This document shows positions 7,319-21,924 of a stretch of 36,365 bases of DNA, piece after piece. A program made the position numbers and the translations under genes. Each line of letters starts with the position of its first letter. The first letter of the stretch is position 1. The notes under the pieces are model-generated. The model was not told the origin of the DNA and searched no databases. It worked only from the letters and a program-made list of their open reading frames with translations. Origin of the DNA: Marinilabiliaceae bacterium (GTDB lineage Bacteria; Bacteroidota; Bacteroidia; Bacteroidales; Marinilabiliaceae); contig JALVJU010000287.1 of NCBI GenBank assembly GCA_027034005.1, forward strand, positions 1-36,365, written 5' to 3'.

Positions 7319-7381
7319 GGGATTCTTGCTTCAGCCTTGAATAATTACGATATCATAATGTGAAAAGTTTATAAAGTAGAA

Positions 7382-8106
7382 ATGAGTGACAGGAATATTT
7401 TCAAAGAGTTGTTTTCGCTGAAAGGGAAAACAGGGATAGTTACCGGTGCAGCGAACGACCTGGGGCTGGAGATGAGCCGGACCCTTGCCATTGCAGGAGC
7501 TAAGGTGTTTTGCCATTAGCCGGTCGGACAAGGTGAAAGGTGAAACTGATAAACCGTTACCGGAAACCGTGGAACACATTGCTGTCGATGTTACGGATTA
7601 CGACCGGATTGGAAAAATTATTGACCGAATCGGGAAAGATCATGGCATCGATTTTCTGGTGAACAATGCCGGCATAACCAACCGCACCCCGGCAGAGGAG
7701 TAGGACATGAAAGATTTTGATAAGATAGTAAAGATCAATGTTGATGCTGTGTTCAACCTTTGCAAAGCCTGTTGCCCATGCATGAAGAAAGCACAGGGCG
7801 GCGGCAGTATCGTGTCCATATCATCAATGGCAGCACACCTTGGCTTTCCCGAAGTGGTGCGGTACAGTGCAACCAAATCGGCAATAACGGGCATGACTAG
7901 TGGGCTTACCAAAGAAGTGGGTCATTGAAAATATTCATGTCAACTCAGTTGCTCCCGGATGGTTCCTCTAGGAAATACTGTAGCTGATACTGGACGATAA
8001 GCTTAGAAATAAGATACTGAACCGTATGCCTACACACCGTTCGGATGGCCTAGGGAAGCTGGCAACCATGAACCCTTGTATTTACCTGCCGAATCCTATA
8101 TTACCG
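7382..8106 (+). pseudogene. Decayed short-chain dehydrogenase/reductase (gluconate 5-dehydrogenase-like)
   Basis: From the ATG at 7382 the translation begins FSLKGKTGIVTGAANDLGLE, a typical SDR start with a modified TGxxxGxG motif. An extra T in the run at about 7507-7512 shifts the frame and gives a stop in the first reading. Removing it restores KVFAISRSDK and then DFLVNNAGITNRT. A TAG at 7701-7703 interrupts what follows. Past that comes SIVSISSMAAHLG and YSATKSAITG, the SDR Ser and YxxxK. A further G insertion near 7918 breaks TKEW-IENIHVNSVAPGWF, and two more TAGs and another shift precede a remnant of the C-terminal end. At least three frameshifts and several nonsense changes show it has been inactive for some time. 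The two short ORFs inside it (7485-7703, 7707-7928) are fragments, not genes. Confidence 0.85.
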
Positions 8107-8154
8107 AAAATTACATTAAAAAGAATGATAAAACACAATTATTTTCAATAATAA

Positions 8155-8283: not shown

Positions 8284-9000
8284 ATGGAAGGCTTAAACAA
8301 AAAGGAATTTTCACCAATAAAACGACCAAAAAAGTTAAGCTATCAAATAGAAGAACAGATATTGAATGCCATTAGGCAAAAAGTTTTTGGTGTTGGTGAT
8401 CTGTTGCCTGCCGAAAATAAATTAACAGAAATATTTAATGTTAGTAGAGGTGTAATTCGCGAGGCACTGCAAATGTTATCAACTAAAGGATTAATCGAAA
8501 TTCAGAAAGGTAAAGGTGCAATTGTTCTAAATCCCTCTATTGAAGCAATACTCGATCCATTTTCTTCATTTATAGATTATAAATGTGGGAACAAAGGTCT
8601 TATTTGTTCTTTAGGGGCCAGGATAAACATTGAACCACAAGTTGCTGCTTTAGCTGCCCAGAACAGAACAAATAGAGATATTGAAAAATTGAAGGGATTT
8701 TATGAGAATATGGAAAAGAATAAAAAAGATATAGAAACTTTGCATTTTTATGATATTGAATTCCATAATGCAATCTCAATAGCTAGTGGTAATCCTTTGT
8801 TTGCTATAATTTTAGAACCTATTTATCATTTTCAGCAAACTTATTATAAAGAAGCCCTAAATATTTTCCATCAAGATCATGAGACTTTTGATTATCATTT
8901 AAAGATTCTTGATGCCATAAAGGAAAAAGACAGCAAATCTGCAGCTCAGTTTATGAAAGAACACTTATCAATTGCCTTAAAATACATAGAAAGTCTATAA
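8284..9000 (+). CDS. GntR-family transcriptional regulator, FadR/FCD subfamily
   Basis: The N-terminal winged helix spans residues ~15-85 and carries the GntR signature (LPAENKLTEIFNVSRGVIREALQ, read in two parts, then GLIEIQKGKGAIV). The C-terminal all-helical FCD effector domain spans ~100-235. It has the usual metal/ligand residues: Asp and His in YDIEFHNAI, plus His residues near HQDHETF and KEHL. Members of this subfamily usually repress sugar-acid or carboxylate catabolism genes and are released by a pathway intermediate. It is the first gene of the AT-rich block and sits just behind a palindromic operator (8188-8205), so it most likely controls the genes from here to 21924 and itself. 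The effector is unknown, but the FCD domain points to an acidic metabolite. Confidence 0.93.
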   Translation: MEGLNKKEFSPIKRPKKLSYQIEEQILNAIRQKVFGVGDLLPAENKLTEIFNVSRGVIREALQMLSTKGLIEIQKGKGAIVLNPSIEAILDPFSSFIDYKCGNKGLICSLGARINIEPQVAALAAQNRTNRDIEKLKGFYENMEKNKKDIETLHFYDIEFHNAISIASGNPLFAIILEPIYHFQQTYYKEALNIFHQDHETFDYHLKILDAIKEKDSKSAAQFMKEHLSIALKYIESL

Positions 9001-9063: not shown

Positions 9064-9852
9064 ATGAGAGCGAGCAAAGTTTTAAAAAAATTACGAAAAG
9101 GGGAGGTAGTGAGCTGTTTCAATGTTCATTTGGATGCCCAGGTGTCTGATATTGCAGGGTTAGCAGGCTATGACTGCCTTTGGATAGACAGGGAACATCT
9201 GGCTCAGGATTGGAGCATTCTTCAATCACATATTTGGGCAGCTAAAGCTCATGATACGGATGTCATGGTAAGGGTATCACGTGGTAGTTACAGCGATTAT
9301 ATAAAACCACTTGAAATGGACGCATCAGGAATAATGGTACCACATATCATGGGGCTGGAAGATGCCAGGAATGTAGTTAAAATGACACGTTTTCACCCAA
9401 TTGGCCGTCGACCATTAGATGGTGGAAATGCAGATGGGGATTATGCATCTATGAACTATGCCGAATACCTACCACAAGCAAACAGAGAACGGTTTGTAAT
9501 TGTACAAATTGAAGATCCTGAACCATTAGATGAGCTTGATGCAATCGCTGCATTAGACGGGATTGACATGCTTTTTTTTGGCCCTGCCGATTTTAGTCAT
9601 TCAATTGGTGCACCGGGCGAATGGGGCCACCCAAGATTATTAGAAGCACGAGAATTAGTGGCCAAGGTTGCCAAAAAACATGGCAAATATGCCGGGATCC
9701 CGGCTAATCTTGAGAACATGGAAGAACTTGTTGCCATGGGTTACAGATTTATTACTCTTGGCGCTGATGTGGTAGCCGTTGGAGCATATTGCAAAAATTA
9801 TATCAATAAATTTTCTGAAACATTTAATAATTTTAAAGATAAAACAGTATGA
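9064..9852 (+). CDS. HpcH/HpaI-family class II aldolase (2-keto-3-deoxy acid type)
   Basis: The family cleaves 2-keto-3-deoxy acids, such as 2,4-dihydroxyhept-2-ene-1,7-dioate or 2-keto-3-deoxysugar acids, into pyruvate (or a close analogue) and an aldehyde with a divalent metal. Seen here: WIDREH near residue 42, Arg in MVRVSRG (~75), GIMVPHI (~95), metal ligands Glu150 (VQIEDPE) and Asp176 (FFGPADFS), then the C-terminal ITLGADVVAVG. Its length (262 aa) is normal. The stop overlaps the start of the aminotransferase by 4 bp (ATGA), so the two are translationally coupled and probably act in sequence or share pyruvate. The ordinary metal ligands are intact, so activity is expected; the specific substrate is not determinable. 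Confidence 0.9.
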   Translation: MRASKVLKKLRKGEVVSCFNVHLDAQVSDIAGLAGYDCLWIDREHLAQDWSILQSHIWAAKAHDTDVMVRVSRGSYSDYIKPLEMDASGIMVPHIMGLEDARNVVKMTRFHPIGRRPLDGGNADGDYASMNYAEYLPQANRERFVIVQIEDPEPLDELDAIAALDGIDMLFFGPADFSHSIGAPGEWGHPRLLEARELVAKVAKKHGKYAGIPANLENMEELVAMGYRFITLGADVVAVGAYCKNYINKFSETFNNFKDKTV

Positions 9853-11219
9853 GCAAAGATTGGTGGAAAGAGTCCGCAAATGGAATCCCAAATATTATTA
9901 CAGATTTACCCGGCCCAAAATCAATTAAAATGCATGCTAATGCAAGCAAGTATATACGTGGGCTCTCATCACAGGTAAAGCAGTTCCCCGTAGCTTTCGA
10001 AAAAGCCAAAGGGATTACCATGACAGATGTTGACGGAAACAAATACCTTGACTTTTCATCCGGGATATATGTAACATCCCTGGGGCACATTCATCCTAAG
10101 ATTTCAGAAGCCATCTCAAAATGGGCGAATAAGTTAATGAATTGCCATGATTTCACAACACCTGTTAAGGAGAAATTGCTGGAGAAAATGTCTGATGTGC
10201 TTCCCGGAAGCCTCAATTCTATTCAGTTGTACAGTGATGGAAGTTCTGCAGTGGAGGCAGGAATCAGGGCTGCAAGGGCTATTGGAAATCATCACGAATT
10301 TATCTCCTGCTTTCGGGATTTTCATGGTAAAAGCATGGCGGCCGTAAGCATGGCACAAATGGTTCGAGGAGATGTTTTCAGTTATGGCCCTACACGTGCA
10401 CCCGGTTTTTATATGGTACCGCGCCCTGATCCCTATCGCCCATTATTTAAAAAAGATGATGGAAGCATTGATACAGATGCATATATTAGCTTTTATAAAG
10501 AATTCATCCGCGAAAGCACTGTTGGAAACGTTGCAGCTTTTGTTTTAGAACCTGCACAAGGTTGGGGGGGGTCGATCTTTCCCCCGGACGACTATTTTCC
10601 AAAATTAAAAAAATTATGCGATGAACATGGGATACTTCTCTTTGCTGACGAAGTACTTACCGGCATGGGACGTACCGGGGAATGGTTGTGTATGAACCAT
10701 TGGGATGTAACGCCAGATATCGTCACCTTGGGCAAATCCTTCGGAAATGGATTTCCTGTTACCGCCATGGTTGTTAAAGATGAATATGCCGAAGCTTTAG
10801 ATAAAATTTCTGCTTCTTCAAGTTATGGTGGTAATCCAATGGCATGTGCTGCCGCCTTGGCTTCTATTGAGGTAATTGAAGAGGAACAGATATTGGAGAA
10901 TGTACAATCAGTTGGGGCATATTTTATTAAAAGGATGAACAAAATGAAAGAAGATCATCCTATTATTGGTGACGTGAAAGGGAAAGGGTTTTTACTCGGA
11001 ATGGAATTGGTGAAAGATAAAACTACTAAAGAACCTTTTGATGAAGCAGGAAAACTGGTTTATCAAAAAGCATTCAGCAAAGGCCTTGCTTGGATTCCGG
11101 CAGGGCATATTCTCAGGATGTCCCCACCACTTATCATGGATGAGAAATATGCGGATTTGGGTTTGGATATTATTGAAGAGTCTATAGCAGAGGTTGAAAA
11201 AGAGTTTGGATATAAATAA
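9849..11219 (+). CDS. Class III pyridoxal-phosphate aminotransferase
   Basis: A fold-type I, subgroup II (omega-type) aminotransferase of 456 aa. Key signatures: SDGSSAVEAGIRAAR near residue 128 (cofactor phosphate region), LFADEVLTGMGRTG with the PLP-ring Asp, and TLGKSFGNGFPVTAMV with the Schiff-base Lys296. Class III enzymes transfer amino groups from omega- or beta-amines, amino sugars, or semialdehydes to pyruvate or 2-oxoglutarate; glutamate-1-semialdehyde mutases are relatives. Translationally coupled to the upstream aldolase, whose pyruvate product could be the amino acceptor. The next gene starts 17 bp after. In this operon it suggests that the growth substrate carries an amine, or that an aldehyde intermediate is aminated. 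No missing catalytic residue seen. Confidence 0.92.
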   Translation: MSKDWWKESANGIPNIITDLPGPKSIKMHANASKYIRGLSSQVKQFPVAFEKAKGITMTDVDGNKYLDFSSGIYVTSLGHIHPKISEAISKWANKLMNCHDFTTPVKEKLLEKMSDVLPGSLNSIQLYSDGSSAVEAGIRAARAIGNHHEFISCFRDFHGKSMAAVSMAQMVRGDVFSYGPTRAPGFYMVPRPDPYRPLFKKDDGSIDTDAYISFYKEFIRESTVGNVAAFVLEPAQGWGGSIFPPDDYFPKLKKLCDEHGILLFADEVLTGMGRTGEWLCMNHWDVTPDIVTLGKSFGNGFPVTAMVVKDEYAEALDKISASSSYGGNPMACAAALASIEVIEEEQILENVQSVGAYFIKRMNKMKEDHPIIGDVKGKGFLLGMELVKDKTTKEPFDEAGKLVYQKAFSKGLAWIPAGHILRMSPPLIMDEKYADLGLDIIEESIAEVEKEFGYK

Positions 11220-11236
11220 TTGCAAATAATAAACAC

Positions 11237-12067
11237 ATGAAACAATATAGATTAAACCGATTATTTAATAAAAAATCGAAACGCTGCCTCAATGTAGCAA
11301 TAGATCACGGTTTTTTTAATGAATTTGGGTTTTTAAAAAGTATTGAAAATATTGAACAAGCCATAAATACAGTAATAGAAGCAGCTCCGGATGCTATTCA
11401 GCTCACTGTGGGCCAAACAGATTATTTACAATCCAAAATAGGAAAAGACAAACCAACTTTGGTTATGAGGACCGATGTTGCCAATGTTTATGGTCAGCAA
11501 CTGCCCGATTATTTGTTTAGCAGGATGATCGAGTACCCGGTTGAACAAGCGCTAAACAAAGACGCAGCCTGTGTTGTTGTCAACCTATTTAGGATACCAG
11601 GTCAACCGGAAGTATCAGATCAATGCATCCAAAATATATTGAAAATAAAACCTCTTTGTGATCGTTTTTCAATGCCCTTAATGATAGAGCCTCTTGTTTT
11701 TCAATCAAACGAAAAAGCAGGTGGTTATATGGTTGATGGAGACCTTAATAAGATCTTACCATTAGTCCGTCAGGCAGTTGAACTAGGAGCTGATATAATT
11801 AAAGCTGACCCAACTGATAATATAGAAGATTATCACAAGGTCATAGAAATTTCCGGGAAAGTTCCTGTACTGGTCCGGGGCGGAGGAAAAGTTTCGGACA
11901 AGGAAATCCTTACCCGCACCAAAGCAATTATTGACCAAGGGGCTGCCGGTATAGTGTATGGAAGAAATATTATCCAACACAAAAACCCAAAAGCAATTAC
12001 CAAATCACTTATGAGCATTGTGCATGATAATCTTAACGTAGAACAAGCTCTTGAATTTTTGGCATAA
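11237..12067 (+). CDS. DhnA/LsrF-type class I aldolase (DeoC/FbaB superfamily)
   Basis: Schiff-base aldolase of the archaeal-type FBA family (COG1830 group), which also contains LsrF and the aromatic-pathway ADH synthase. Seen: NVAIDHGFF near residue 20, PLMIEPL near 150, ADIIKADPTD with the Schiff-base Lys189, VPVLVRGGGK with the phosphate-binding glycines near 215, and GAAGIVYGRNIIQHKNP. Those last two loops normally hold a sugar-phosphate group, so a phosphorylated substrate is likely. This fits the kinase that follows. Length 276 aa is typical. A 114-bp gap with a GAAT tandem repeat separates it from the kinase gene. This is the second aldolase in the operon and has a different fold class and mechanism from the HpcH/HpaI one at 9064. 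Confidence 0.9.
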   Translation: MKQYRLNRLFNKKSKRCLNVAIDHGFFNEFGFLKSIENIEQAINTVIEAAPDAIQLTVGQTDYLQSKIGKDKPTLVMRTDVANVYGQQLPDYLFSRMIEYPVEQALNKDAACVVVNLFRIPGQPEVSDQCIQNILKIKPLCDRFSMPLMIEPLVFQSNEKAGGYMVDGDLNKILPLVRQAVELGADIIKADPTDNIEDYHKVIEISGKVPVLVRGGGKVSDKEILTRTKAIIDQGAAGIVYGRNIIQHKNPKAITKSLMSIVHDNLNVEQALEFLA

Positions 12068-12181: not shown

Positions 12182-13477
12182 TTGTCAAAAAACATAGCCA
12201 TAATAATAGATATCGGTACAAGTTACATTAAGTGTTACTGTATTAATTCTGATCATAAAATCTTGACTTCTCATCAAAAAAAATTCCCAATGATAGAAGT
12301 TCATGATAGTTATGAGCTTGATTTCCAACTATTTCTAAGAACTACAAAAGGCCTTATTTTCAAATGCTTACAAGATATAAACATCAAAGGATCAGGCATT
12401 GAGGCATTATTGATAACAAGTCAGGCTAACACTTTTGTACCTGTCAATTATGATTTCGAACCATTATGCAATGGTATTGTTTGGTTGGATGAAAGAGCAG
12501 TAAAGGAAGCAGGCTATCTTAATTGTGAATTACCCGATTATTCAAAATATTCGGGCTTTAAACAAATACACCCCAGTCTGTATGCAGCAAAATTATTATG
12601 GCTAAAACGAAATGAAGCTTCAATTTATAAAAAAGCTGCACATTTCCCGCTAATAAATGAATACATAGTTTATAAACTCACTGGCCATTACTATTCTGAC
12701 ACTACAAGTTTTGGGATGAGTGGCATGTACGATCACATTGAAAATGAGCCTATTCTCAAGTTGCTACAAATACTCGAACTTACCGGCAATCATTTCCCAA
12801 TGATTGAAGATCCCGCAAAAAGGGGCGAACTGATTTCAATCGATTTTATGAAAGAATTGGAGCTTGACCATAGATTCCCAGTCTATTTATGCGGAAATGA
12901 CCAAGGTGCTTCAGCTATTGGTGCGGGATTAAGAGACCCCGGTGATATCAATATAAATTTTGGCACTGCCATGGTTTTGTACACTATTACCCAAAAGCTT
13001 AGCAATAAGTTGAACAATCAACAAATCGCAGGAAAACATCCTGTGGGGGATTACTATTTTTTGTTGAATTATGAAGCTGATTTTGGAATTCAAATCCGAT
13101 GGCTAAAAGATTATTTTTTCAGAGAAGGAACATATGATCAGTTGTTTAAAACATACCTTGATTATCCCTCAACAGCTGAAAAAGTCCCATTTTCCAAAGC
13201 AGACGACCTGAATTTGATCAGTTCTTCAGAATCGCCACAATATTGTGCAGGTATCATAAAATATTATTTGAACAGATTAAAAAGACATTTATCTCAAATC
13301 AAAAAATCGATTAAGATAAATAACGTATTTATTTCCGGCGGCATGGCGCAATCAACAGTATGGCTTGAGATACTTAACAACACTCTAAATATGCCAATTA
13401 CGGAAAATCGCGAGAAACATGCAGGTATTTTGGGTGCGTATGGAATATATCAACAATTCAAAATTAAAAAAGATTAA
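12182..13477 (+). CDS. FGGY-family carbohydrate kinase
   Basis: ATP-dependent kinase of the xylulokinase/ribulokinase/glycerol kinase family; phosphorylates an open-chain sugar, keto-sugar or polyol. N-terminal phosphate-1 loop IIDIGTSYIKCYCIN (residues ~8-22), NGIVWLDERA near 98, GNDQGASAIGAGL near 238, INFGTAMV near 258 (ATP site), and VFISGGMAQSTVWLEI near 382 (adenosine motif). Length 431 aa is a little short for the family. The start has to be TTG: an in-frame TAA lies at 12170-12172 and the first ATG is too far inside the phosphate-loop domain. It is 1 bp from the NagB-like gene. In the operon it most likely makes the phosphorylated intermediate for the DhnA-type aldolase. Confidence 0.88.
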   Translation: MSKNIAIIIDIGTSYIKCYCINSDHKILTSHQKKFPMIEVHDSYELDFQLFLRTTKGLIFKCLQDINIKGSGIEALLITSQANTFVPVNYDFEPLCNGIVWLDERAVKEAGYLNCELPDYSKYSGFKQIHPSLYAAKLLWLKRNEASIYKKAAHFPLINEYIVYKLTGHYYSDTTSFGMSGMYDHIENEPILKLLQILELTGNHFPMIEDPAKRGELISIDFMKELELDHRFPVYLCGNDQGASAIGAGLRDPGDININFGTAMVLYTITQKLSNKLNNQQIAGKHPVGDYYFLLNYEADFGIQIRWLKDYFFREGTYDQLFKTYLDYPSTAEKVPFSKADDLNLISSSESPQYCAGIIKYYLNRLKRHLSQIKKSIKINNVFISGGMAQSTVWLEILNNTLNMPITENREKHAGILGAYGIYQQFKIKKD

Positions 13478-13478
13478 C

Positions 13479-14414
13479 ATGGGCAAATTTACTTACGAAC
13501 CTTCAAAACATGTGCCTTTCCGGGATAAGAAAATCCTGGAAAGAGTACGTAAAATTGAACGAAAAGATATTGAAAAGCATAAAAACCCTGATTTTAGGAT
13601 TAAGGTAATTCCCGATGCTGATATGAGTATTATTATGCTTTTTGATATTTTTCACCGTATAAAAACTGCCTCAGATAATAATGAAGCTATTGTTTTGATT
13701 ATGCCAAATCCCTGGCCTCATTACAGAATGTTGGCACACATGCTAAATAAGTTTCGTGTTGATTGCAGTAAATTATATACTTTCAATATGGATGAATATG
13801 CCGACCAGGATGGAAATATAGCCCCGGAAAATTGGAGATACGGTTTTGGCTATGCATTTAAGAACTACTTCTTTTATAATTTAGACAAAGACCTCAGGCC
13901 TCCTGAAAATCAAATACACACATTTACTAATAAAAACATAAATGATTATGGTAAGATGATAACCGACCTCGGTGAGGCTGACATGGTTTATAGCGGCCCC
14001 GGCTGGACTGGTCATCTGGCATTTATTGAACCTGATGCGCCGGAATTTAAAGCCAATTCAATGGATGAATGGATGGAGATGGAATCCCGAATCGTTACTC
14101 TTAGTCCGTTTACTCTTGCACAAAACTCTTTACATGGCAGCTTTGGAATGAGTGGCGATTTGGCAATGGTGCCTCCTAAAGCAGCCACTATTGGCCCGGC
14201 ACAGGTAGTACGAGCAAAAAACAGAATGCAATTTTGTGGAATTAGTGTGCATGGAACAACTACATCATGGCAAAGACTGATCACCCGACTTGTTTTACAT
14301 GGCGACCCAACACCTCTAGTCCCGGAATCAGTACATCAATTATTACGAACAGACTCCTATGTGTCGGAAACCATTGCAATGAATATCGAACCAGATTTTG
14401 AAAAAGGATATTAA
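13479..14414 (+). CDS. NagB-like (glucosamine-6-phosphate deaminase/6-phosphogluconolactonase superfamily) protein with altered active site
   Basis: The ATG at 13479 is chosen over an in-frame start at 13419 because the latter overlaps the kinase; the kinase stop is 1 bp before. The NagB fold is supported by FNMDEY with Asp105 (E. coli Asp72, the base), GPGWTGHLAFIEPD (E. coli GVGxDGHIAFNEP) and the downstream SPFTLAQNS-MVPPKAATIG region. Compared with NagB, His179 and Glu184 are kept (His143, Glu148), but Asp141 is replaced by Thr177 and the Asn of NEP by Ile. The spacing matches exactly, so this is a substitution and not a misalignment. At 311 aa it is longer than NagB (about 266). It probably isomerises or deaminates a phosphorylated amino sugar, but the change at 177 makes a different reaction plausible. 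Confidence 0.82.
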   Translation: MGKFTYEPSKHVPFRDKKILERVRKIERKDIEKHKNPDFRIKVIPDADMSIIMLFDIFHRIKTASDNNEAIVLIMPNPWPHYRMLAHMLNKFRVDCSKLYTFNMDEYADQDGNIAPENWRYGFGYAFKNYFFYNLDKDLRPPENQIHTFTNKNINDYGKMITDLGEADMVYSGPGWTGHLAFIEPDAPEFKANSMDEWMEMESRIVTLSPFTLAQNSLHGSFGMSGDLAMVPPKAATIGPAQVVRAKNRMQFCGISVHGTTTSWQRLITRLVLHGDPTPLVPESVHQLLRTDSYVSETIAMNIEPDFEKGY

Positions 14415-15427
14415 TGAACAGGGCACCATCAAAAAACATATTACGTAAAAAAAAGGCTGTCGTCGATGCGCATACCCATGTTGGTATTTCGCCCAGGTTT
14501 TATAGTCAATATGGCTATCCTTATGCTCTTTCATTCGAAGACTTGAATTTAAGAATGAAAGTTCTTGGAATTGATTACTCCGTTGTTTTTCCGTTTGTCG
14601 ACTCCCGATATTATGAGTATGATAATGATTCAGCAGAAATTACAACAACCACAAAACATTGTAATTTTCCTTATGAACTTGAAAACAAGAATTTACTAAA
14701 TGAGATATACAATATATTTCCAAAATATAGCCATAAAGCACTACCTTTTCTCATGTTCGACCCTTCACGCGAAACAGAAAAGCAGGCTGATTTTATGGAA
14801 GGTTTAATGGAGAAATATCCTGTTTTCGGCTTAAAAACAGCTTCTACCTACATACAGTCTTTTATCTCAGATTTGGAAATCAAAGGCAAACCAATACTTG
14901 ATTTAGTAAGAAAGAAAGAGCTCCCTATCACTTTTCACTCCTCGGTACACCCTAAAGATCCCTGGGCCGGAGTAAATGATATTTTAACTTTTGCAAAACA
15001 CAACCCTGATATTAGGGTCTGTATCGCCCACTCTGCCCGCTTTTTAAAACCGGCGTTGCAAGAAGCAGATAAATTAGAAAATTGTTTTGTTGACCTTTCT
15101 GCTTTTATCATCCATTGTAGGCTGGCAGTCCAAAACTCAAAAAACATAGCTGTTCCGGGACTGCGGTTTGATGCGGATTATGAAGACCCTCTATCCGTGA
15201 TGTTTAAATTAGCCAAAACATATCCGGACACAATAATATGGGGAAGCGATACACCTTTCAACTATTGGATTCAAAAATATCATACTGCCGATGGTAAATT
15301 AATAGAAGACCGCTTAGATTGTCGTTATGACGAAGAATCTCAATTGTTAAAGGGATTATCTTCGGAAATAAGAACCAAGATTACCTATACAAACACAATG
15401 CGATTTCTTTTTGGAAGTAAAATCTGA
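14414..15427 (+). CDS. Amidohydrolase-family (amidohydrolase-2 type) metal-dependent hydrolase
   Basis: TIM-barrel metalloenzyme of the amidohydrolase superfamily. His20-x-His22 in VVDAHTHVG, the His pair in TFHSSVH (~175) and CIAHSARF (~206), and the C-terminal Asp in IIWGSDTPFNYW (~276) are the expected metal ligands and catalytic Asp. Family members hydrolyse amides or lactones or decarboxylate. There is no signal peptide, so it is cytoplasmic. The ATG overlaps the NagB-like stop by 1 bp (TAATG), and the next gene is 6 bp downstream, so coupling is tight. In this pathway it could open a lactam or lactone or release an N-acyl group. The family alone does not decide which. Confidence 0.85.
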   Translation: MNRAPSKNILRKKKAVVDAHTHVGISPRFYSQYGYPYALSFEDLNLRMKVLGIDYSVVFPFVDSRYYEYDNDSAEITTTTKHCNFPYELENKNLLNEIYNIFPKYSHKALPFLMFDPSRETEKQADFMEGLMEKYPVFGLKTASTYIQSFISDLEIKGKPILDLVRKKELPITFHSSVHPKDPWAGVNDILTFAKHNPDIRVCIAHSARFLKPALQEADKLENCFVDLSAFIIHCRLAVQNSKNIAVPGLRFDADYEDPLSVMFKLAKTYPDTIIWGSDTPFNYWIQKYHTADGKLIEDRLDCRYDEESQLLKGLSSEIRTKITYTNTMRFLFGSKI

Positions 15428-15433
15428 AGAAAA

Positions 15434-16741
15434 ATGAAAACACTTTTAGTTGGATCAGCCATTATCGATGTAACGCCTAAAAAACCAATGTTTCTGCATG
15501 GTTATCCCCATGTAGAGAGAGTTAGTGAAGGAGTTCACGACCCTCTGTATGCCTCTGCATTAATTATAGACAATGGAGAGACTCAGATCGGGTTTTGCGC
15601 AGTAGATGTCATATTTATTTCAAAGGACATAACAATGCGTGTCAGGAAACAAGTTCAGGAAGCAACCGGGATAAAAGGTGAGAACCTGATGATTTCCGCC
15701 ACTCACACTCATTCCGGCCCGGTAACATTTAGCGATATTTTTTATGACCCGGTTGTGCCAAAGGCAGATGGTGAATATATTACTTTTTTGGTAAATAAGA
15801 TCGCGACAGTTTACATTGAGGCTTTTCGCAACAAAAAAGCATCTAAAATTGCAATCACTACGGCAGATGCTACCGGAGTTGGAGGCAATAGGCGAAGCAT
15901 AAATGACGTAATTGATCCAGAAGTCCCTATTATTGTTTTAAAAGATATGGCTACGGATAAAATATTCGCCTTATCTACGATATATTGCATGCATCCTACT
16001 GTTTTGCACGAAGATTCCAAACTATATTCAGCCGATTTTCCAGGATATACGAGAACATATATCAAAGAAAAATTAGGTAAAGATATCGTTTTATTATACC
16101 ACACCGGGCCTTCCGGCAATCAATCTCCGAGACATTTTATCAATTCAAATACATTTGAAGAAGCAGAGCGATTGGGTTTTAAATTGGGCAGACTAATTAC
16201 TAAAAGTATCTTAAGATTAAATGAATCGGATTATCAAAATTGGATCTCCATTAACATAAAACAATTCAAAATAAACCTGCCTCAAAAAAAATTTATGACA
16301 GTTGATGAGGCAGAAAAAAAGGTGATTTTTGTAAAAAACAAGTTAACAAAAATGCAACTTGATAAGGAACCCGCCAAAGAGATCAGAACTGTTGAATGTG
16401 ACTGGTTTGGCGCATTGGAGAACAAACAACTATCAAAAATGCATGAAAATGGAGAGCTTAAAAAAGTATATGAATCTGTATTACCGGCCGAAATAAATAT
16501 AATTGGGCTTGGAGATGTTCAGTTTGTTTTTTTACCGGGTGAGTTGTTTGTAGAATATTCATTGGAGATAAAAAAACATTCAGCAAAAAGAACATTCGTC
16601 AATAGTTTGTCCAATGGGGTACTTGCCGGATACCTTGTTACACCAGAGGCTGAAAAAGAAGGTGGTTATGAAGCTTCTAACAGCATATTCTCAGCTAAAG
16701 CAGGTCAAGTCTTAATAGAGGAACTCAGTACTAAAATATAA
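15434..16741 (+). CDS. Neutral/alkaline non-lysosomal ceramidase-family hydrolase, cytoplasmic
   Basis: It begins with SAIIDVTPKK, the usual start of ceramidase-family domains. It then shows ISATHTHSGPV near residue 95 with the zinc His, IYCMHPTVLH near 180 and TGPSGNQSPRH near 220. The last of these is where ceramidases carry GDxSPN with the catalytic Ser. In true neutral ceramidases the enzyme cuts the amide of N-acyl sphingosine. Bacterial members in sugar-catabolism operons have unproven substrates. This one has no signal peptide and at 435 aa lacks the C-terminal domain of ceramidases (about 650-700 aa), so lipid ceramide is an unlikely substrate. An amidase for an imported N-acyl compound is a better guess. 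The symporter gene starts 7 bp downstream. Confidence 0.8.
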   Translation: MKTLLVGSAIIDVTPKKPMFLHGYPHVERVSEGVHDPLYASALIIDNGETQIGFCAVDVIFISKDITMRVRKQVQEATGIKGENLMISATHTHSGPVTFSDIFYDPVVPKADGEYITFLVNKIATVYIEAFRNKKASKIAITTADATGVGGNRRSINDVIDPEVPIIVLKDMATDKIFALSTIYCMHPTVLHEDSKLYSADFPGYTRTYIKEKLGKDIVLLYHTGPSGNQSPRHFINSNTFEEAERLGFKLGRLITKSILRLNESDYQNWISINIKQFKINLPQKKFMTVDEAEKKVIFVKNKLTKMQLDKEPAKEIRTVECDWFGALENKQLSKMHENGELKKVYESVLPAEINIIGLGDVQFVFLPGELFVEYSLEIKKHSAKRTFVNSLSNGVLAGYLVTPEAEKEGGYEASNSIFSAKAGQVLIEELSTKI

Positions 16742-16748
16742 AATAACC

Positions 16749-18242
16749 ATGGAAAAAATATCATTAACAATTATTGACTGGATAATAATTATTGCCTATG
16801 GTATAGGGATGTTACTTGTAGGTTTTTATTTTTCACGTCAAAATAAAAACGCTGAAGATTATTTACTTGGAGGTCGAGGAATGAAATCATGGAAAGTAGG
16901 GATATCTCTTTTTGCTACCATGTTTAGTGCTATAACTTATCTTTCCTTGCCCGGCGAAATGGTAAAACATGGGCCAATGATATTCATAATGATTTTTGCT
17001 TTACCATTTATATACTATGTCGTTGCTTATTTTTTCATCCCTTTTATAATGAGACTCAACGTAAGTAGTGCTTATGAATTACTGGAAAAAAGGGTTGGAA
17101 AGCAAAATCGCGTAATTGCCTCTGTTTATTTTTTAACAATGCGTTTTCTATGGATGAGCGTGATTATTTATATGGTTTCAGAAAAGATAATTATCCCGAT
17201 AATGGGATGGTCTGAACAAACTGCATTGATGGTTGGTATTGTAATGGGAATTATTACCATTATTTATACCTCATCAGGGGGATTACGAAGCGTGGTACTT
17301 ACTGATGTTGTTCAATCCTTTGTTTTATTTGGGGGGACTATACTTGCAATCACTCTGATTGTTAAGGACCTAGGCAGCCCGGCAGATATCATCCCTAAAG
17401 AATGGCCGAAAAACTGGTCAGGCTGGGTGTTTTTTGATACCGATGTCAGAGTGAGTTTCTTAACTGCATTTATTTCAACATTTGGATGGTATGTATGTAC
17501 GGCAGGTTCTGACCAGATGGCCATCCAACGATATCTTGCTACTAAGGATGTTAAAGCGGCAAAAAGGATGTATCTGAGCTCTGTCTTGGTTAATATTTTT
17601 GTTTATATATTACTTCTCATTCTGGGACTAGGACTTTTTGCCTATGTAAAAATCCATCCGGAGATATTAAGTGGTGTATCCATTGAAGAAGGGGCGGATT
17701 CCCTGTTTCCAAAATTTATTGCTATCGGCCTTCCAGCAGGGTTCTCAGGGCTTGTTTTGGCCGGCCTACTTGCAGCGGCTATGTCCAGCCTTTCGTCAGG
17801 TATAAATTCTTCTTCATTATCAATTGTTGACGATTTTATCCTTCATTCAGGAGCCAAATTAATGAGCGACAAGAAAAAGATCAAATTGGCCCAAGGCATC
17901 TCAGTAATTATAGGGGTGGTAATTGTTTTTGTGAGTTTGCTAATTAGTAATATTCAAGGAAACCTTTTAGAAATTACCTTTAAAACCAGTAATTTATTCG
18001 TTGCCCCGCTTTTTGTACCATTCTTTATGGCAATGTTTATAAAAAAGGCATCCCCAAATGCAACTTTTATTGGCACACTACTTAGTGGTATCTCTGCCAT
18101 ATTAGTTAGTTTCTCAAATGAATTATTTAATGTTAATATATCATTTTTATGGATTATCCCTATCTCGTTTATAGTTGGAATTTCTTTCAGCATTGCTTTA
18201 AGTTATCTTCCTTTTAGATATGGAAAAGTTATTTCTGATTAA
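16749..18242 (+). CDS. Sodium:solute symporter (SSS family)
   Basis: A 497-aa inner-membrane protein with about 13 hydrophobic segments and the LeuT-fold SSS layout. Signature stretches: AEDYLLGGRGM near residue 35, TMFSAITYLSLPGEM near 57 (the unwound TM1/TM2 binding region), YTSSGGLRSVVLTDVVQ near 175 and LAAAMSSLSSGINSSSLSIV near 340. The family imports sugars, polyols, sialic acid, carboxylates or amino acids with Na+. It is the only transporter in the operon, so its substrate should be the pathway substrate or its immediate precursor, probably small and monomeric. It lies 7 bp after the ceramidase-family gene and 12 bp before the aldo/keto reductase. Confidence 0.92.
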   Translation: MEKISLTIIDWIIIIAYGIGMLLVGFYFSRQNKNAEDYLLGGRGMKSWKVGISLFATMFSAITYLSLPGEMVKHGPMIFIMIFALPFIYYVVAYFFIPFIMRLNVSSAYELLEKRVGKQNRVIASVYFLTMRFLWMSVIIYMVSEKIIIPIMGWSEQTALMVGIVMGIITIIYTSSGGLRSVVLTDVVQSFVLFGGTILAITLIVKDLGSPADIIPKEWPKNWSGWVFFDTDVRVSFLTAFISTFGWYVCTAGSDQMAIQRYLATKDVKAAKRMYLSSVLVNIFVYILLLILGLGLFAYVKIHPEILSGVSIEEGADSLFPKFIAIGLPAGFSGLVLAGLLAAAMSSLSSGINSSSLSIVDDFILHSGAKLMSDKKKIKLAQGISVIIGVVIVFVSLLISNIQGNLLEITFKTSNLFVAPLFVPFFMAMFIKKASPNATFIGTLLSGISAILVSFSNELFNVNISFLWIIPISFIVGISFSIALSYLPFRYGKVISD

Positions 18243-18254
18243 TTAAAAATTCAA

Positions 18255-19211
18255 ATGAACAAAAGACCCCTTGGAAAAACCGGTATAGAAGTCTCAGAAA
18301 TTGCATTTGGTGGCGTAGAAATAGGAATGCCTTATGGTATAGGTATAAATAATAAATCCGATATGCTCCCTCGGTCGCAGGCAATTTCATTACTGCAATC
18401 TGCTTTGGACAGGGGCATTAATTTTTTTGATACTGCACGAATGTATGGTGAGAGCGAATCTATCATAGGACAAGCATTTAAAAAGATCAGGGATCAGGTA
18501 GTTATCAGTACCAAATGTCGACATATTAAAGACCCAAAAGGATATCTGCCTGATTCTAATCGTATTAAGAAGATCATAGAAGGATCTGTAATAAAAAGCC
18601 TTAACGAATTAAAGACAGGATACATAGATGTATATATGTTACATCAGGCAGATACAGAGATTCTTGAAAACGAAACAGTTAGCAAAACATTTTTAGATTT
18701 GAAACGGAGAGGGACAATCCGGGCAACCGGTGTTTCCACCTATTCGGTAGAAGAATCAAAAACCGCAATTGAAAGCGGTATATGGGATGTGATTCAACTA
18801 CCATTTAATTTGATGGACCAGTCTCAGGAAACTGTTTTTGCATCAGCAGCAAAACAGGGAGTTGGTATAATGGTGCGTTCAGTACTATTCAAAGGATTAT
18901 TAAGTAGTAAAGGCAGGAAACTGCACCAAAAGCTGAATACTGTAGAGCAGCACATCAGACAATATGACGAGCTAATCAACAGTTCTGCCCCTGACCTTAC
19001 ATCTGTTGCAATTAAATTTGCCCTTTCTTTTAGGCAAATTTCGTCCGTATTGGTGGGGATAGACAAAATGGATTATTTACAAAAAGCTGTTGATATAGCA
19101 AATGGATATTACTTCAGCAAAGAAATATTAAAACGTGCCAAAAAACTCCAATACCCTGATCTGCAATTCCTTGATCTACCTAAATGGGACAGGATGGGTT
19201 GGTTAACCTAA
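18255..19211 (+). CDS. Aldo/keto reductase
   Basis: NAD(P)H-dependent oxidoreductase with the AKR (beta/alpha)8 fold. The full catalytic tetrad is present: Asp59 (FFDTARMYG), Tyr64, Lys87 (ISTKCRH) and His130 (YMLHQAD). The C-terminal cofactor loop region reads SSVLVGIDKMDYL. Length 318 aa is normal. It probably interconverts a sugar or aldehyde/ketone intermediate in the catabolic pathway, or an L-fucose/rhamnose-type lactol. Neighbours: 12 bp after the symporter; the next gene is a decayed lipoprotein remnant. Confidence 0.9.
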   Translation: MNKRPLGKTGIEVSEIAFGGVEIGMPYGIGINNKSDMLPRSQAISLLQSALDRGINFFDTARMYGESESIIGQAFKKIRDQVVISTKCRHIKDPKGYLPDSNRIKKIIEGSVIKSLNELKTGYIDVYMLHQADTEILENETVSKTFLDLKRRGTIRATGVSTYSVEESKTAIESGIWDVIQLPFNLMDQSQETVFASAAKQGVGIMVRSVLFKGLLSSKGRKLHQKLNTVEQHIRQYDELINSSAPDLTSVAIKFALSFRQISSVLVGIDKMDYLQKAVDIANGYYFSKEILKRAKKLQYPDLQFLDLPKWDRMGWLT

Positions 19212-19260
19212 GCTGCAAGATTCACGTATTTGATTTGATGCATGTATGATAATAAACTAT

Positions 19261-20147
19261 ATGAAAATAATCAAAAACCGCTTTAGAAAGTTTTTTTGTC
19301 AAGGTTTAGTTTTGATAATCAGTGCATCTAAAATCTTTTCTTGTAAAAATGAAACTATAAGTTCATCACAAGAATTTATAGGTTTGAAAAAAATGGTGAT
19401 GTAATGTCAGTGATGCAAAATAAAAATACGGGGAAATTTGTTGCCTGTTCCAAAGGTTGGGCTAACGCAAGGCCATCACACCGACATTTTGTACGTGTAG
19501 AAAATGACGATTTTATTCATTGGCCTGAGCCAGAGGTAGCGATTAGGCATGCTAATGATTCTATTGGCCCAAAATCTTATGGAATAAATACTTCACATTA
19601 TGGAAGCAGTTACATAGTGTTGCTGCATTCATATAAAAAAACCGGTAATGAAACCATTGATATCCAATTGACCATTAACCATGAAAATAAAAACTGGATA
19701 CATGTTGCCAATAAGGAGACTTTTATTCCAGTTGGTGCAGTAGGTACCTTGAACAATGGGATGCTCTTTACCGCCCCATCAATTAATCATAGTGACAAAA
19801 GGCAGAACTATTATGGTGCATGGGATGGCCAACATGACATAAAAGAGCATAAAAGCGGAATTGATTTGGCTACTTTGCGAAATAATGGTTTTGTTTCGCT
19901 CTATGCAACCGTCTGGGAACATATCACAACATATCCCATAAAAGACACCAGTGGATATTTGCTCGTAAATATTAATGCGACAGGAGGTCCAATGCCTGCC
20001 GAACTGTTAAATGAAAATGGCAAGCCAATTAGTGAGTATACATTAAATGAATCTGTTCCTATTCATTCCGATGAAATTTCAGTCCCAGTTCAATGGGAAA
20101 ACCATATTAAACTACCTGAACAGGCATATAGCATTCGTTTTCATTAG
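19261..20147 (+). pseudogene. Decayed exported beta-propeller/glycosidase-like gene (lipoprotein start plus C-terminal part)
   Basis: The ATG at 19261 starts a 47-aa frame with a lipoprotein signal: a hydrophobic stretch ending KIFSC (Cys28). It ends at TAA 19402-19404, inside which a new ATG (19404) opens a 247-aa frame in another phase. That second frame, read a little upstream, gives FEKNGDVMSVMQNKNTGKFVA, which looks like the middle of a five-bladed-propeller protein. The C-terminal VSLYATV and LNENGKPISEY resemble the ends of GH43/GH32-like or BNR-like Bacteroidota lipoproteins. The usual N-terminal catalytic half is missing and the A7 run at 19387-19393 is at the phase change. I read it as a frameshifted gene with an internal deletion. 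The 247-aa frame could still be translated by coupling at TAATG, but would stay in the cytoplasm. Exact family unsure. Confidence 0.7.
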
Positions 20148-20202: not shown

Positions 20203-21126
20203 ATGATTAAAATTGGAATTCTAGGATTAAACGAAGGGAATGGCCACCCTTATTCATGGGCTGCCATTATCAACGGAGATTACAACGAAAAAGAGATGGA
20301 GAAGTGTGGCTATGCAGGAATACCCCTCTACCTGAAAGCAAACAAGAATACATTGGGCATTGACGGTGCAGCAGTCACACATATTTGGACCCAGGACAGA
20401 AAACTATCCGAACATATTGCCAGGGCTTCGGGCATTACACATGTTGTAGAAAAAGCCGAAGAAATGATCGATCAGGTTGATGCTGTAATACTGGCTAGAG
20501 ATGATCCCGAAAACCACGTTGCTATGGCAAAACCATTTTTGGACGCAGGAGTCCCCATTTTCATAGACAAGCCTTTGGCCATGTCATATGCCGACCTGAA
20601 TTATTTCAAATCACAACAACAAAAAGGAAAGTTCATCATGTCATGCTCCTCAATGCGCTATTCGTCTGAATGCCTATCTTTAAAAACAGAATTAAACACG
20701 ATAGGGAAAATAGAGCTGGCTACTGTTGTTGGCAGCAAAGACTGGACAAAATACGGGGTTCACATGCTGGAAGCCTTATTTGCACTATTGGATGATCCAA
20801 AAGCTGTAAATGTGCAAAATATTGGAAAACCTGGAAAAGAGATCGTCAGTGTTGTTTTTGACAATGAACTGCAAGTTACAGTACATATCTATATGGATAT
20901 ATCAGCTACTTTTCAAATATCCCTTTATGGACAAAAGGGATGGCAAACAATTGACATCAAAAACTCTTACGTCATGTTTAAAGAAAACCTGAATGAGTTT
21001 GTCCGTTCCGTCCGGGAGGGCAAACCAAGGATCCCGTTTGAAAAAACAGAAAATATTATTAGAACCCTCATTGGAGCCAAAGAAAGCCTTGGGCAAAATG
21101 GTAAAATAATTGACCTTACAAATTAA
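20203..21126 (+). CDS. Gfo/Idh/MocA-family oxidoreductase
   Basis: The start ATG at 20203 gives MIKIGILGLNEGNGHPYSW, which puts a Rossmann beta strand at the very N-terminus. The alternative ATGs at 20185 and upstream only add AT-rich codons. Residues 1-120 form the NAD(P) domain, with a modified glycine-rich loop (GLNEGNGHP, not GxGxxG). VDAVILARDDPENHVAMAKP and IFIDKPLAM are the family signature (DKP where most have EKP). Residues ~125-300 form the C-terminal dimer domain. At 307 aa it is short for the family (330-450). The degenerate dinucleotide loop suggests altered cofactor binding. It is likely cytoplasmic and acts as a sugar or inositol dehydrogenase, or a related enzyme, in the operon. 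It starts 55 bp after the pseudogene and 21 bp before the SDR. Confidence 0.83.
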   Translation: MIKIGILGLNEGNGHPYSWAAIINGDYNEKEMEKCGYAGIPLYLKANKNTLGIDGAAVTHIWTQDRKLSEHIARASGITHVVEKAEEMIDQVDAVILARDDPENHVAMAKPFLDAGVPIFIDKPLAMSYADLNYFKSQQQKGKFIMSCSSMRYSSECLSLKTELNTIGKIELATVVGSKDWTKYGVHMLEALFALLDDPKAVNVQNIGKPGKEIVSVVFDNELQVTVHIYMDISATFQISLYGQKGWQTIDIKNSYVMFKENLNEFVRSVREGKPRIPFEKTENIIRTLIGAKESLGQNGKIIDLTN

Positions 21127-21147: not shown

Positions 21148-21924
21148 ATGAATGTTAAAGATTTATTAAGTTTAAAAGGTAAAATTGCTCTTGTTACCGG
21201 TGGCGCTGGAAATTATGGCAAGTGTATTGTAGAAGGTCTTGCAGAAGCTGATGCCACTGTGATTACTGCTTCCAGAAATATAGAAAATAGTAAAAAGTTT
21301 GCGCAAAAATGTATAGCCAATGGATTAACTGTACATGTTATGCAAGTTGATCAGGCAGACCATGATTCTGTTATGTCATTAAAACAACAAATAATAAAAA
21401 AATTTGGAAGACTTGATGTTTTTGTCAACAATGCCGTTAGTCGCCCTATGTCCGGCTATAACGACCCTATTGAACTTTTTGAAGAATCTATGCGTGTAAA
21501 TGCAACCGGAATGTTCGATATCCTTCGTGAAATGACTGGTCTGATTACATTAGCCGGTGGAGGCAGTATTATCAACATAAGTTCTATGATGGGCGTTTTT
21601 GGCCCCGACCTGACAAATTATGAAGGTACAGATATGGGGGACATGCCCCCTGATTATTTCTTTCACAGGGGAGGTTTGATAAATCTTACCCGCTATTTAG
21701 CAAGAATGTTGGCAAATAAAAACATACGTGTCAATTGCATCAGTCCGGGAGGTCTTTTCAATAATCAACCTAAACGGTTTGTTGAAAATTATTGTAAAAA
21801 AGTTCCCGTTGGTCGAATGGCAAATAATGATGACATAAAGGGCCTAGTGGTATTTTTAGCTTCAAAGGCATCTGCTTATGTCAATGGTGAAAATATTTTA
21901 ATGGACGGTGGAATGCATGCATAA
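21148..21924 (+). CDS. Short-chain dehydrogenase/reductase with Arg in place of the catalytic Lys
   Basis: Classical SDR of 258 aa with cofactor motif VTGGAGNYGKCI near residue 16, VNNAVSRP near 95 (NNAG-like), Ser145/Ser146 in INISSMMG, and the C-terminal NIRVNCISPGG and ENILMDGGM. The active-site Tyr170 (DYFFHRGG) is followed by Arg174 where YxxxK requires Lys; the codon is AGG, one base from AAG. In SDRs the Lys lowers the Tyr pKa and binds the nicotinamide ribose, so activity may be reduced, changed or lost. The rest of the sequence is conserved with no frame damage, which suggests retained function. It is the last gene of the block and ends at 21924. Confidence 0.88.
   Translation: MNVKDLLSLKGKIALVTGGAGNYGKCIVEGLAEADATVITASRNIENSKKFAQKCIANGLTVHVMQVDQADHDSVMSLKQQIIKKFGRLDVFVNNAVSRPMSGYNDPIELFEESMRVNATGMFDILREMTGLITLAGGGSIINISSMMGVFGPDLTNYEGTDMGDMPPDYFFHRGGLINLTRYLARMLANKNIRVNCISPGGLFNNQPKRFVENYCKKVPVGRMANNDDIKGLVVFLASKASAYVNGENILMDGGMHA

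Follow-up and report, generated by a model that had tools for sequence, protein, structure and literature searches.

A predicted cytoplasmic N-deacylase of the neutral ceramidase fold in an amino-sugar type operon of a Marinilabiliaceae bacterium

The 36,365-nucleotide stretch of Marinilabiliaceae DNA analysed here (contig JALVJU010000287.1; in the following, the window) carries an amino-sugar type operon, one gene of which encodes a single-domain protein of the neutral ceramidase fold. We consider it probable that this protein is a cytoplasmic Zn2+ N-deacylase that takes part in breaking down an amino sugar imported with an N-acyl group, most likely N-acetyl. Proteins annotated as "neutral/alkaline non-lysosomal ceramidase N-terminal domain-containing" are widespread in bacteria and archaea and owe their name to a lipid substrate; the conserved cassettes described below predict a cytoplasmic branch that acts on amino sugars. 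If this is true, a widespread family would be re-annotated, the ceramidase fold would be used as a sugar deacylase, and a catabolic route would exist that includes an active-site-altered relative of NagB and NagS-like proteins outside Streptomyces. A literature search on cytoplasmic bacterial ceramidases in sugar operons yielded no relevant paper.

The ceramidase-fold protein and its active site

The gene begins with ATG and encodes 435 residues on the forward strand (Table 1). Its product matches Pfam family PF04734 (Ceramidase_alk) with 67.1 bits, the cut-off being 32.1 (E 1.6e-18). This is the only Pfam domain in the protein, starting at about residue 4, and the protein is the sole PF04734 member in its own genome (3.9 Mb, 87% complete). 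An earlier note, made from the sequence alone, had described a ceramidase N-terminal domain signature on a protein without a signal peptide and without the C-terminal domain, a description which our analysis confirms. The two motifs concerned, ISATHTHSGP and GPSGNQSPRH, lie at residues 87-96 and 225-234. No hydrophobic stretch of the kind expected of the secretion signal of a neutral ceramidase is seen at the N-terminus, where the first strand of the model occupies residues 5-12; and because the open frame comprises 437 codons, at most two of them before the ATG, no signal peptide can be gained through an earlier start. The C-terminal domain is absent, the protein having 435 amino acids versus 646 and 688 residues in the chains of the Pseudomonas aeruginosa enzyme (PaCD) and the human enzyme (ASAH2), and the alignment stops with the catalytic domain. 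The NCBIfam equivalog model for neutral ceramidase (NF041649) scores 24 bits against a cut-off of 1200. No amidohydrolase match to the protein is found in NCBIfam (TIGR00221) or Pfam, and it is thus not a member of the NagA family; it is predicted to work like NagA without being one. Relatives in viral contigs were not found in a single-protein scan.

A profile built from 52 relatives was searched against solved structures, and the same alignment was supplied to AlphaFold2. The profile matches exactly two solved families, 2zws (E 4.5e-47) and 4wgk (E 4.4e-44), with matches that span both halves of the domain. The AlphaFold2 model (pLDDT 95.6, pTM 0.93) gives as its top four Foldseek hits 2zws, chains A and B of 4wgk, and 2zxc, with TMq values of 0.74-0.77 and E-values of about 1e-28 (0.77 and 1.4e-28 for 2zws). 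Beyond the neutral ceramidases Foldseek revealed no credible fold match in the PDB.

In the published structures of PaCD the Zn ligands are H97, H204, E411 and Y448, with Ser274 as the catalytic serine and Arg160 and His99 as further active-site residues; their counterparts in the window protein are listed in Table 1. Among the 129 homologues collected the Zn ligands are retained in 126-129, H91 being present in all 129 and the neighbouring H93 in 128. The position of Ser274 is more variable, with Asn in 73 homologues and Ser in 22, the window protein included. S231 is invariant in the clade formed by the window and Verrucomicrobiota proteins, and since most other relatives have Asn here, activity may differ between branches. 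On the strength of the alignments and the predicted model, a ceramidase-type metal site in a soluble single-domain protein can be regarded as established.

Table 1. Features of the operon and residues of the ceramidase-fold protein that align with the PaCD active site (window coordinates)
Feature	Position	Strand	Basis or remarks
GntR/FCD regulator	8284..9000	+	NanR is the nearest NCBIfam model, at 149 bits under a cut-off of 260
HpcH/HpaI aldolase	9064..9852	+	57-69% identical homologues near ceramidase-fold genes in loci L068, L181 and L184
Class-III aminotransferase	9849..11219	+	60-67% orthologues adjoining Verrucomicrobiota ceramidase-fold genes
DeoC/LacD/DhnA-type class-I aldolase	11237..12067	+	63-68% orthologues in Verrucomicrobiota cassettes
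FGGY carbohydrate kinase	12182..13477	+	domain match
Divergent NagB-like protein	13479..14414	+	TIGR00502, 47.6 bits; 53-67% orthologues
Amidohydro_2 metallohydrolase	14414..15427	+	HxH, H, H and D complete on inspection by eye
Ceramidase-fold single-domain protein, 435 aa, predicted cytoplasmic Zn2+ N-deacylase	15434..16741	+	PF04734, 2zws profile, AlphaFold2, Foldseek
H91-T-H93 (ATHTHSGP), PaCD Zn ligand H97 and active-site H99	15704..15712	+	2zws alignment
R153, PaCD active-site Arg160	15890..15892	+	2zws alignment; 115/129 homologues
H187, PaCD Zn ligand H204	15992..15994	+	2zws alignment, homologues
S231 (GNQSPRH), PaCD catalytic Ser274	16124..16126	+	2zws alignment, homologues
E370 (PGE), PaCD Zn ligand E411	16541..16543	+	2zws alignment, homologues
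Y400, PaCD Zn ligand Y448	16631..16633	+	2zws alignment, homologues
Na+/solute symporter (SSS)	16749..18242	+	profile match
Aldo/keto reductase	18255..19211	+	profile match
Gfo/Idh/MocA oxidoreductase	20203..21126	+	
SDR oxidoreductase	21148..21924	+	46-47% homologues in L181 and L184

The operon and its genomic setting

The gene order runs from the GntR/FCD regulator and the HpaI aldolase through to the SSS symporter, the aldo/keto reductase, the Gfo/Idh oxidoreductase and the SDR oxidoreductase. Between 9064 and 19211 the genes are co-directional and overlap or are separated by 17 bp or less, the sole exception being a gap of 114 bp before the FGGY kinase. The "sugar-type operon" of the earlier note is borne out by the gaps of 6 bp (15427/15434) and 7 bp (16741/16749) that flank the ceramidase-fold gene. 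A tblastn search of plasmids with the window amidohydrolase gave no match. Just upstream of the operon, at 7380-8130, lies what appears by eye to be the remains of a decayed SDR dehydrogenase gene, interrupted by stops and broken frames. Near the operon's end, at 19250-20147, a lipoprotein-like start and a downstream frame of 247 amino acids, which has no Pfam match, stand in different frames; this region looks like a broken secreted protein.

The NagB-like gene upstream starts at 13479 and not, as a correction, at 13419. Its product scores 47.6 bits with TIGR00502, where the cut-off for NagB deaminases is 236.9, and gives a profile match to NagB in the PDB with an E-value of 8.7e-15. It keeps the catalytic MDE, H and E of NagB, with the Asp of GxGxDGH changed to Thr. 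The NagB-like proteins of all of these cassettes retain the MDE and GH motifs and lack this Asp, having Thr in the window clade and Asn in the Devosia type (for example, L035:5377-6078). The reaction probably differs from GlcN-6P deamination, the altered Asp suggesting an amino sugar other than plain GlcN-6P. Class-III aminotransferases usually use terminal amines, and this habit, together with the loss of the Asp from NagB, argues for a pathway other than plain GlcNAc catabolism. Neither NagA nor a PF01182 NagB was found in the genome, of which 13% may be missing, so that in this organism any hexosamine route would need to be encoded by the operon itself. Plain GlcNAc catabolism through NagA and NagB was rejected for the window on these grounds, neither protein having been found in the 87% complete genome and the active site of the NagB-like protein being altered.

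The block at 8-22 kb has a GC content of 34-40% versus 42-49% in its flanks. Searches of 71 genomes of the family, 295 of the order and 396 of the phylum revealed no protein more than about 31% identical to the ceramidase-fold protein over a long stretch; there was one short match of 40% over 98 residues. The AT-rich block and the lack of close relatives of this protein in the family, order or phylum point to horizontal acquisition. The operon has the appearance of an acquired island, and the only close relatives of its ceramidase-fold protein are found in Verrucomicrobiota.

Relatives and their gene neighbourhoods

Two Verrucomicrobiota relatives with 40% identity were first found in a genome scan, and a search of the whole phylum revealed close relatives (E<=1e-35), most of them 38-45% identical, in 24 of 388 genomes. 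Together with the window protein they form one clade (99 and 100% SH-aLRT), the members of which are single-domain proteins and, with few exceptions, have no hydrophobic stretch upstream; every full-length member keeps all catalytic residues, the serine included. Twenty-two Verrucomicrobiota loci were examined for neighbouring genes and, since many contigs are short, the counts are lower bounds: FGGY kinase in 15, class-III aminotransferase in 12 (60-67% identical), NagB-like protein in 11 (53-67%) and DhnA aldolase in 5 (63-68%). An amidohydrolase is present in 11 loci, either Amidohydro_2 (7 loci; 36-49% homologues) or NagA-like (4 loci) and never both, an exclusion which is suggestive but not significant, as about 1.3-1.4 co-occurrences are expected by chance in 22 loci. 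A single locus, L184, combines AKR, Gfo, HpaI (60%), SDR (46%), Amidohydro_2, NagB-like and FGGY genes. The Verrucomicrobiota loci thus repeat the gene set of the window in a shuffled order, and the retention of content without order argues for functional linkage over inertia. In L188 an acetyl-CoA synthetase gene (L188:4127-6088) lies next to the NagA-like gene and on the same strand as this and the NagB-like gene, which is consistent with a putative release and salvage of acetate. The L183 cassette contains a polysaccharide deacetylase.

More distant cytoplasmic relatives occur in Proteobacteria, Actinobacteria, Chloroflexi and Firmicutes, in cassettes with NagA-, NagB- and NagS-like genes and sugar importers. 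The order in Devosia, Nitratireductor and Ponticoccus is LacI, NagB-like, SIS, NagA-like, ceramidase-fold, sugar ABC transporter, and Granulosicoccus, Ktedonobacter, Pseudonocardia, Actinopolymorpha and Firmicutes have the same genes. In the Devosia-type cassettes the SIS protein is a UPF0309 member that matches SCO4393 (PDB 9eol, E 9.7e-37); such a NagS-like protein is constant in the catabolic cassettes of Proteobacteria, Chloroflexi and Firmicutes (L035, L060, L045 and others). The NagA-like proteins score 166-182 bits with TIGR00221 in several cassettes and 342, above the cut-off, in L053, and have the metal-binding and catalytic residues. N-acylglucosamine 2-epimerases (102-127 bits) often accompany the distant cassettes, and some of these carry a mannose-family PTS nearest to AgaW/AgaE. 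Every one of these partners belongs to a family of amino-sugar enzymes. On the tree, the amino-sugar cassette trait undergoes nine changes.

Same-strand genes of NagB, NagA or SIS type within 8 kb were counted for the 111 family members whose flanking sequence amounts to 6 kb or more. They are present in 41 of the 80 members without a signal-like stretch versus 4 of the 31 with one (Fisher p 2e-4), a contrast which is descriptive and not proof, because cassette members had served as seeds for the scan that supplied the loci, and the counts are phylogenetically non-independent. SSS symporters adjoin ceramidase-fold genes in several separate clades, and the phylogeny of SSS-neighbouring ceramidase-domain proteins, which the earlier note had offered as a test, is therefore not specific.

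Several other arrangements were observed. In Bacteroidales, family members that seem to carry a lipoprotein signal peptide (L122, L140, L004, L032) adjoin NagB-like and Gfo/Idh genes, and another member of this branch (L068) also carries a PIG-L deacetylase; the same chemistry may take place outside the cytoplasm too. Four Acidobacteriota loci (L043, L044, L051, L058), which form a clade with 100% support, share a conserved trio of ceramidase-fold, Gfo/Idh and SSS symporter genes; this cassette is of another type, and in three of the four the residue corresponding to Ser274 is Ser. A megaplasmid of Enterococcus raffinosus has two adjacent ceramidase-fold genes (L037:6808-9233), preceded by an Amidohydro_2 gene and followed by a beta-glucoside-type PTS. 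The first of the two copies has lost active-site His residues (HFRQ) and may be a non-catalytic partner.

Proposed pathway, alternatives and known systems

The operon context points to amino-sugar catabolism, for which the following route can be proposed. The SSS symporter would import the compound, and the ceramidase-fold enzyme, in sequence with the adjoining amidohydrolase, would take off the acyl group or groups. A Zn-activated water would attack the amide carbonyl of the imported amino-sugar derivative, with the participation of H91, H187, E370 and Y400 and of S231, H93 and R153. The aminotransferase, the NagB-like protein or both would then take away the freed amine; the FGGY kinase would phosphorylate the sugar and the class-I aldolase would split it, while the oxidised and reduced fragments would go to the HpaI aldolase and the reductases. 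Amide hydrolysis, the substrate class and this order of steps are deduced from gene content and conserved residues. The proposal of the earlier note, an amidase acting on some small N-acyl compound taken up by the cell, stands in part: the cytoplasmic single-domain branch, the complete catalytic site and the linkage across phyla to amino-sugar and importer genes agree with it, and the hydrolysis and the identity of the compound stay at the level of prediction. The panel it suggested, with N-acetyl sugars, N-acyl amino acids and ceramide, can be restricted to derivatives of amino sugars.

A second amidohydrolase is present in nearly every cassette, so the bond opened by the ceramidase-fold enzyme may be a different one, and the group that it removes may be the N-acetyl or another acyl group. 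In its fuller form, to which we give a lower but appreciable probability, this alternative has the enzyme open another bond of the same compound (a second amide, a lactam, an amino-acid amide, an ester or a lactone), while the Amidohydro_2 or NagA-like partner de-N-acetylates. A pair of enzymes catalysing the same step would be superfluous, yet cassettes in several phyla hold both an intact NagA-like and a ceramidase-fold protein, and in Verrucomicrobiota one or the other amidohydrolase accompanies the ceramidase-fold gene. Against this, no activity other than N-acyl amidase is known for the neutral ceramidase fold, no NagA was found in the genome of the window, and the Amidohydro_2 family, to which the partner belongs, has many non-amidase members. 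A sugar substrate with two amide groups would explain both the paired amidases and the aminotransferase/NagB-like pair, although this is speculative. The HpaI aldolase, the two amidases, the aminotransferase and the lactaldehyde-type reductases hint at a di-N-acyl nonulosonate or di-acetamido sugar, an idea set aside as speculation only, HpaI not being constant in the cassettes.

Two further alternatives are much less probable. That the protein is an isomerase, lyase or epimerase, reusing the ceramidase Zn site for a reaction without hydrolysis, seems improbable to us: relatives with Asn in place of Ser dominate the wider family and several orphan steps of the pathway need catalysts, but every full-length member of the window clade keeps each ceramidase catalytic residue, S231 among them. 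We give slightly less credit still to a cytosolic ceramidase or lipid amidase recycling the cell's own sphingolipid-type N-acyl lipids. The best-known members of the fold do cut ceramide, and the window protein retains the serine and all Zn ligands; however, the missing C-terminal domain, the lack of secretion, the sugar partners in several phyla and the 24 bits against 1200 with NF041649 make ceramide unlikely as the substrate, as does the result for serine palmitoyltransferase, for which neither of the two strong hits to a related model in the incomplete genome passes the curated cut-off. One of these hits is a glycine C-acetyltransferase and the other scores 285 against 640. The N-deacylase of an imported amino sugar is hence the reading that we prefer. 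It is possible, though we put this forward more tentatively, that the ceramidase fold provides cytoplasmic amino-sugar N-deacylases with a third class, unrelated in structure to the others and central to a route, so far undescribed, that Verrucomicrobiota and some Bacteroidota share, with a NagA/NagB/NagS-like variant in Proteobacteria, Actinobacteria, Chloroflexi and Firmicutes.

PaCD (2zws/2zxc) and human ASAH2 (4wgk) share with the window protein the fold of the catalytic domain, the four Zn ligands, the serine (Ser274/Ser354), the Arg and the second His. In the structure alignment identity is 15-17%, and the window protein differs in having neither the signal peptide nor the C-terminal domain and, unlike PaCD and ASAH2, in being encoded in an amino-sugar type operon. 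An inter-domain metal site has been described for ASAH2 (PMC13022665); without the C-terminal domain the window protein lacks such a site. NagS (SCO4393) belongs to a GlcNAc-6P dehydratase route of Streptomyces, and its reaction has been called limited to Streptomycetaceae, in a paper which does not mention a ceramidase (PMC12680351). The SIS protein of the Devosia-type cassettes resembles this NagS, whereas the window's own operon has no NagS-like gene. The N-acetylhexosamine-6-phosphate deacetylases NagA and AgaA have an unrelated fold, the amidohydrolase TIM barrel, but would perform the same chemistry as that proposed here, and they keep the same company of NagB-like, SIS/NagS-like and sugar importer genes. 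In many relatives a NagA-like gene adjoins the ceramidase-fold gene rather than being replaced by it.
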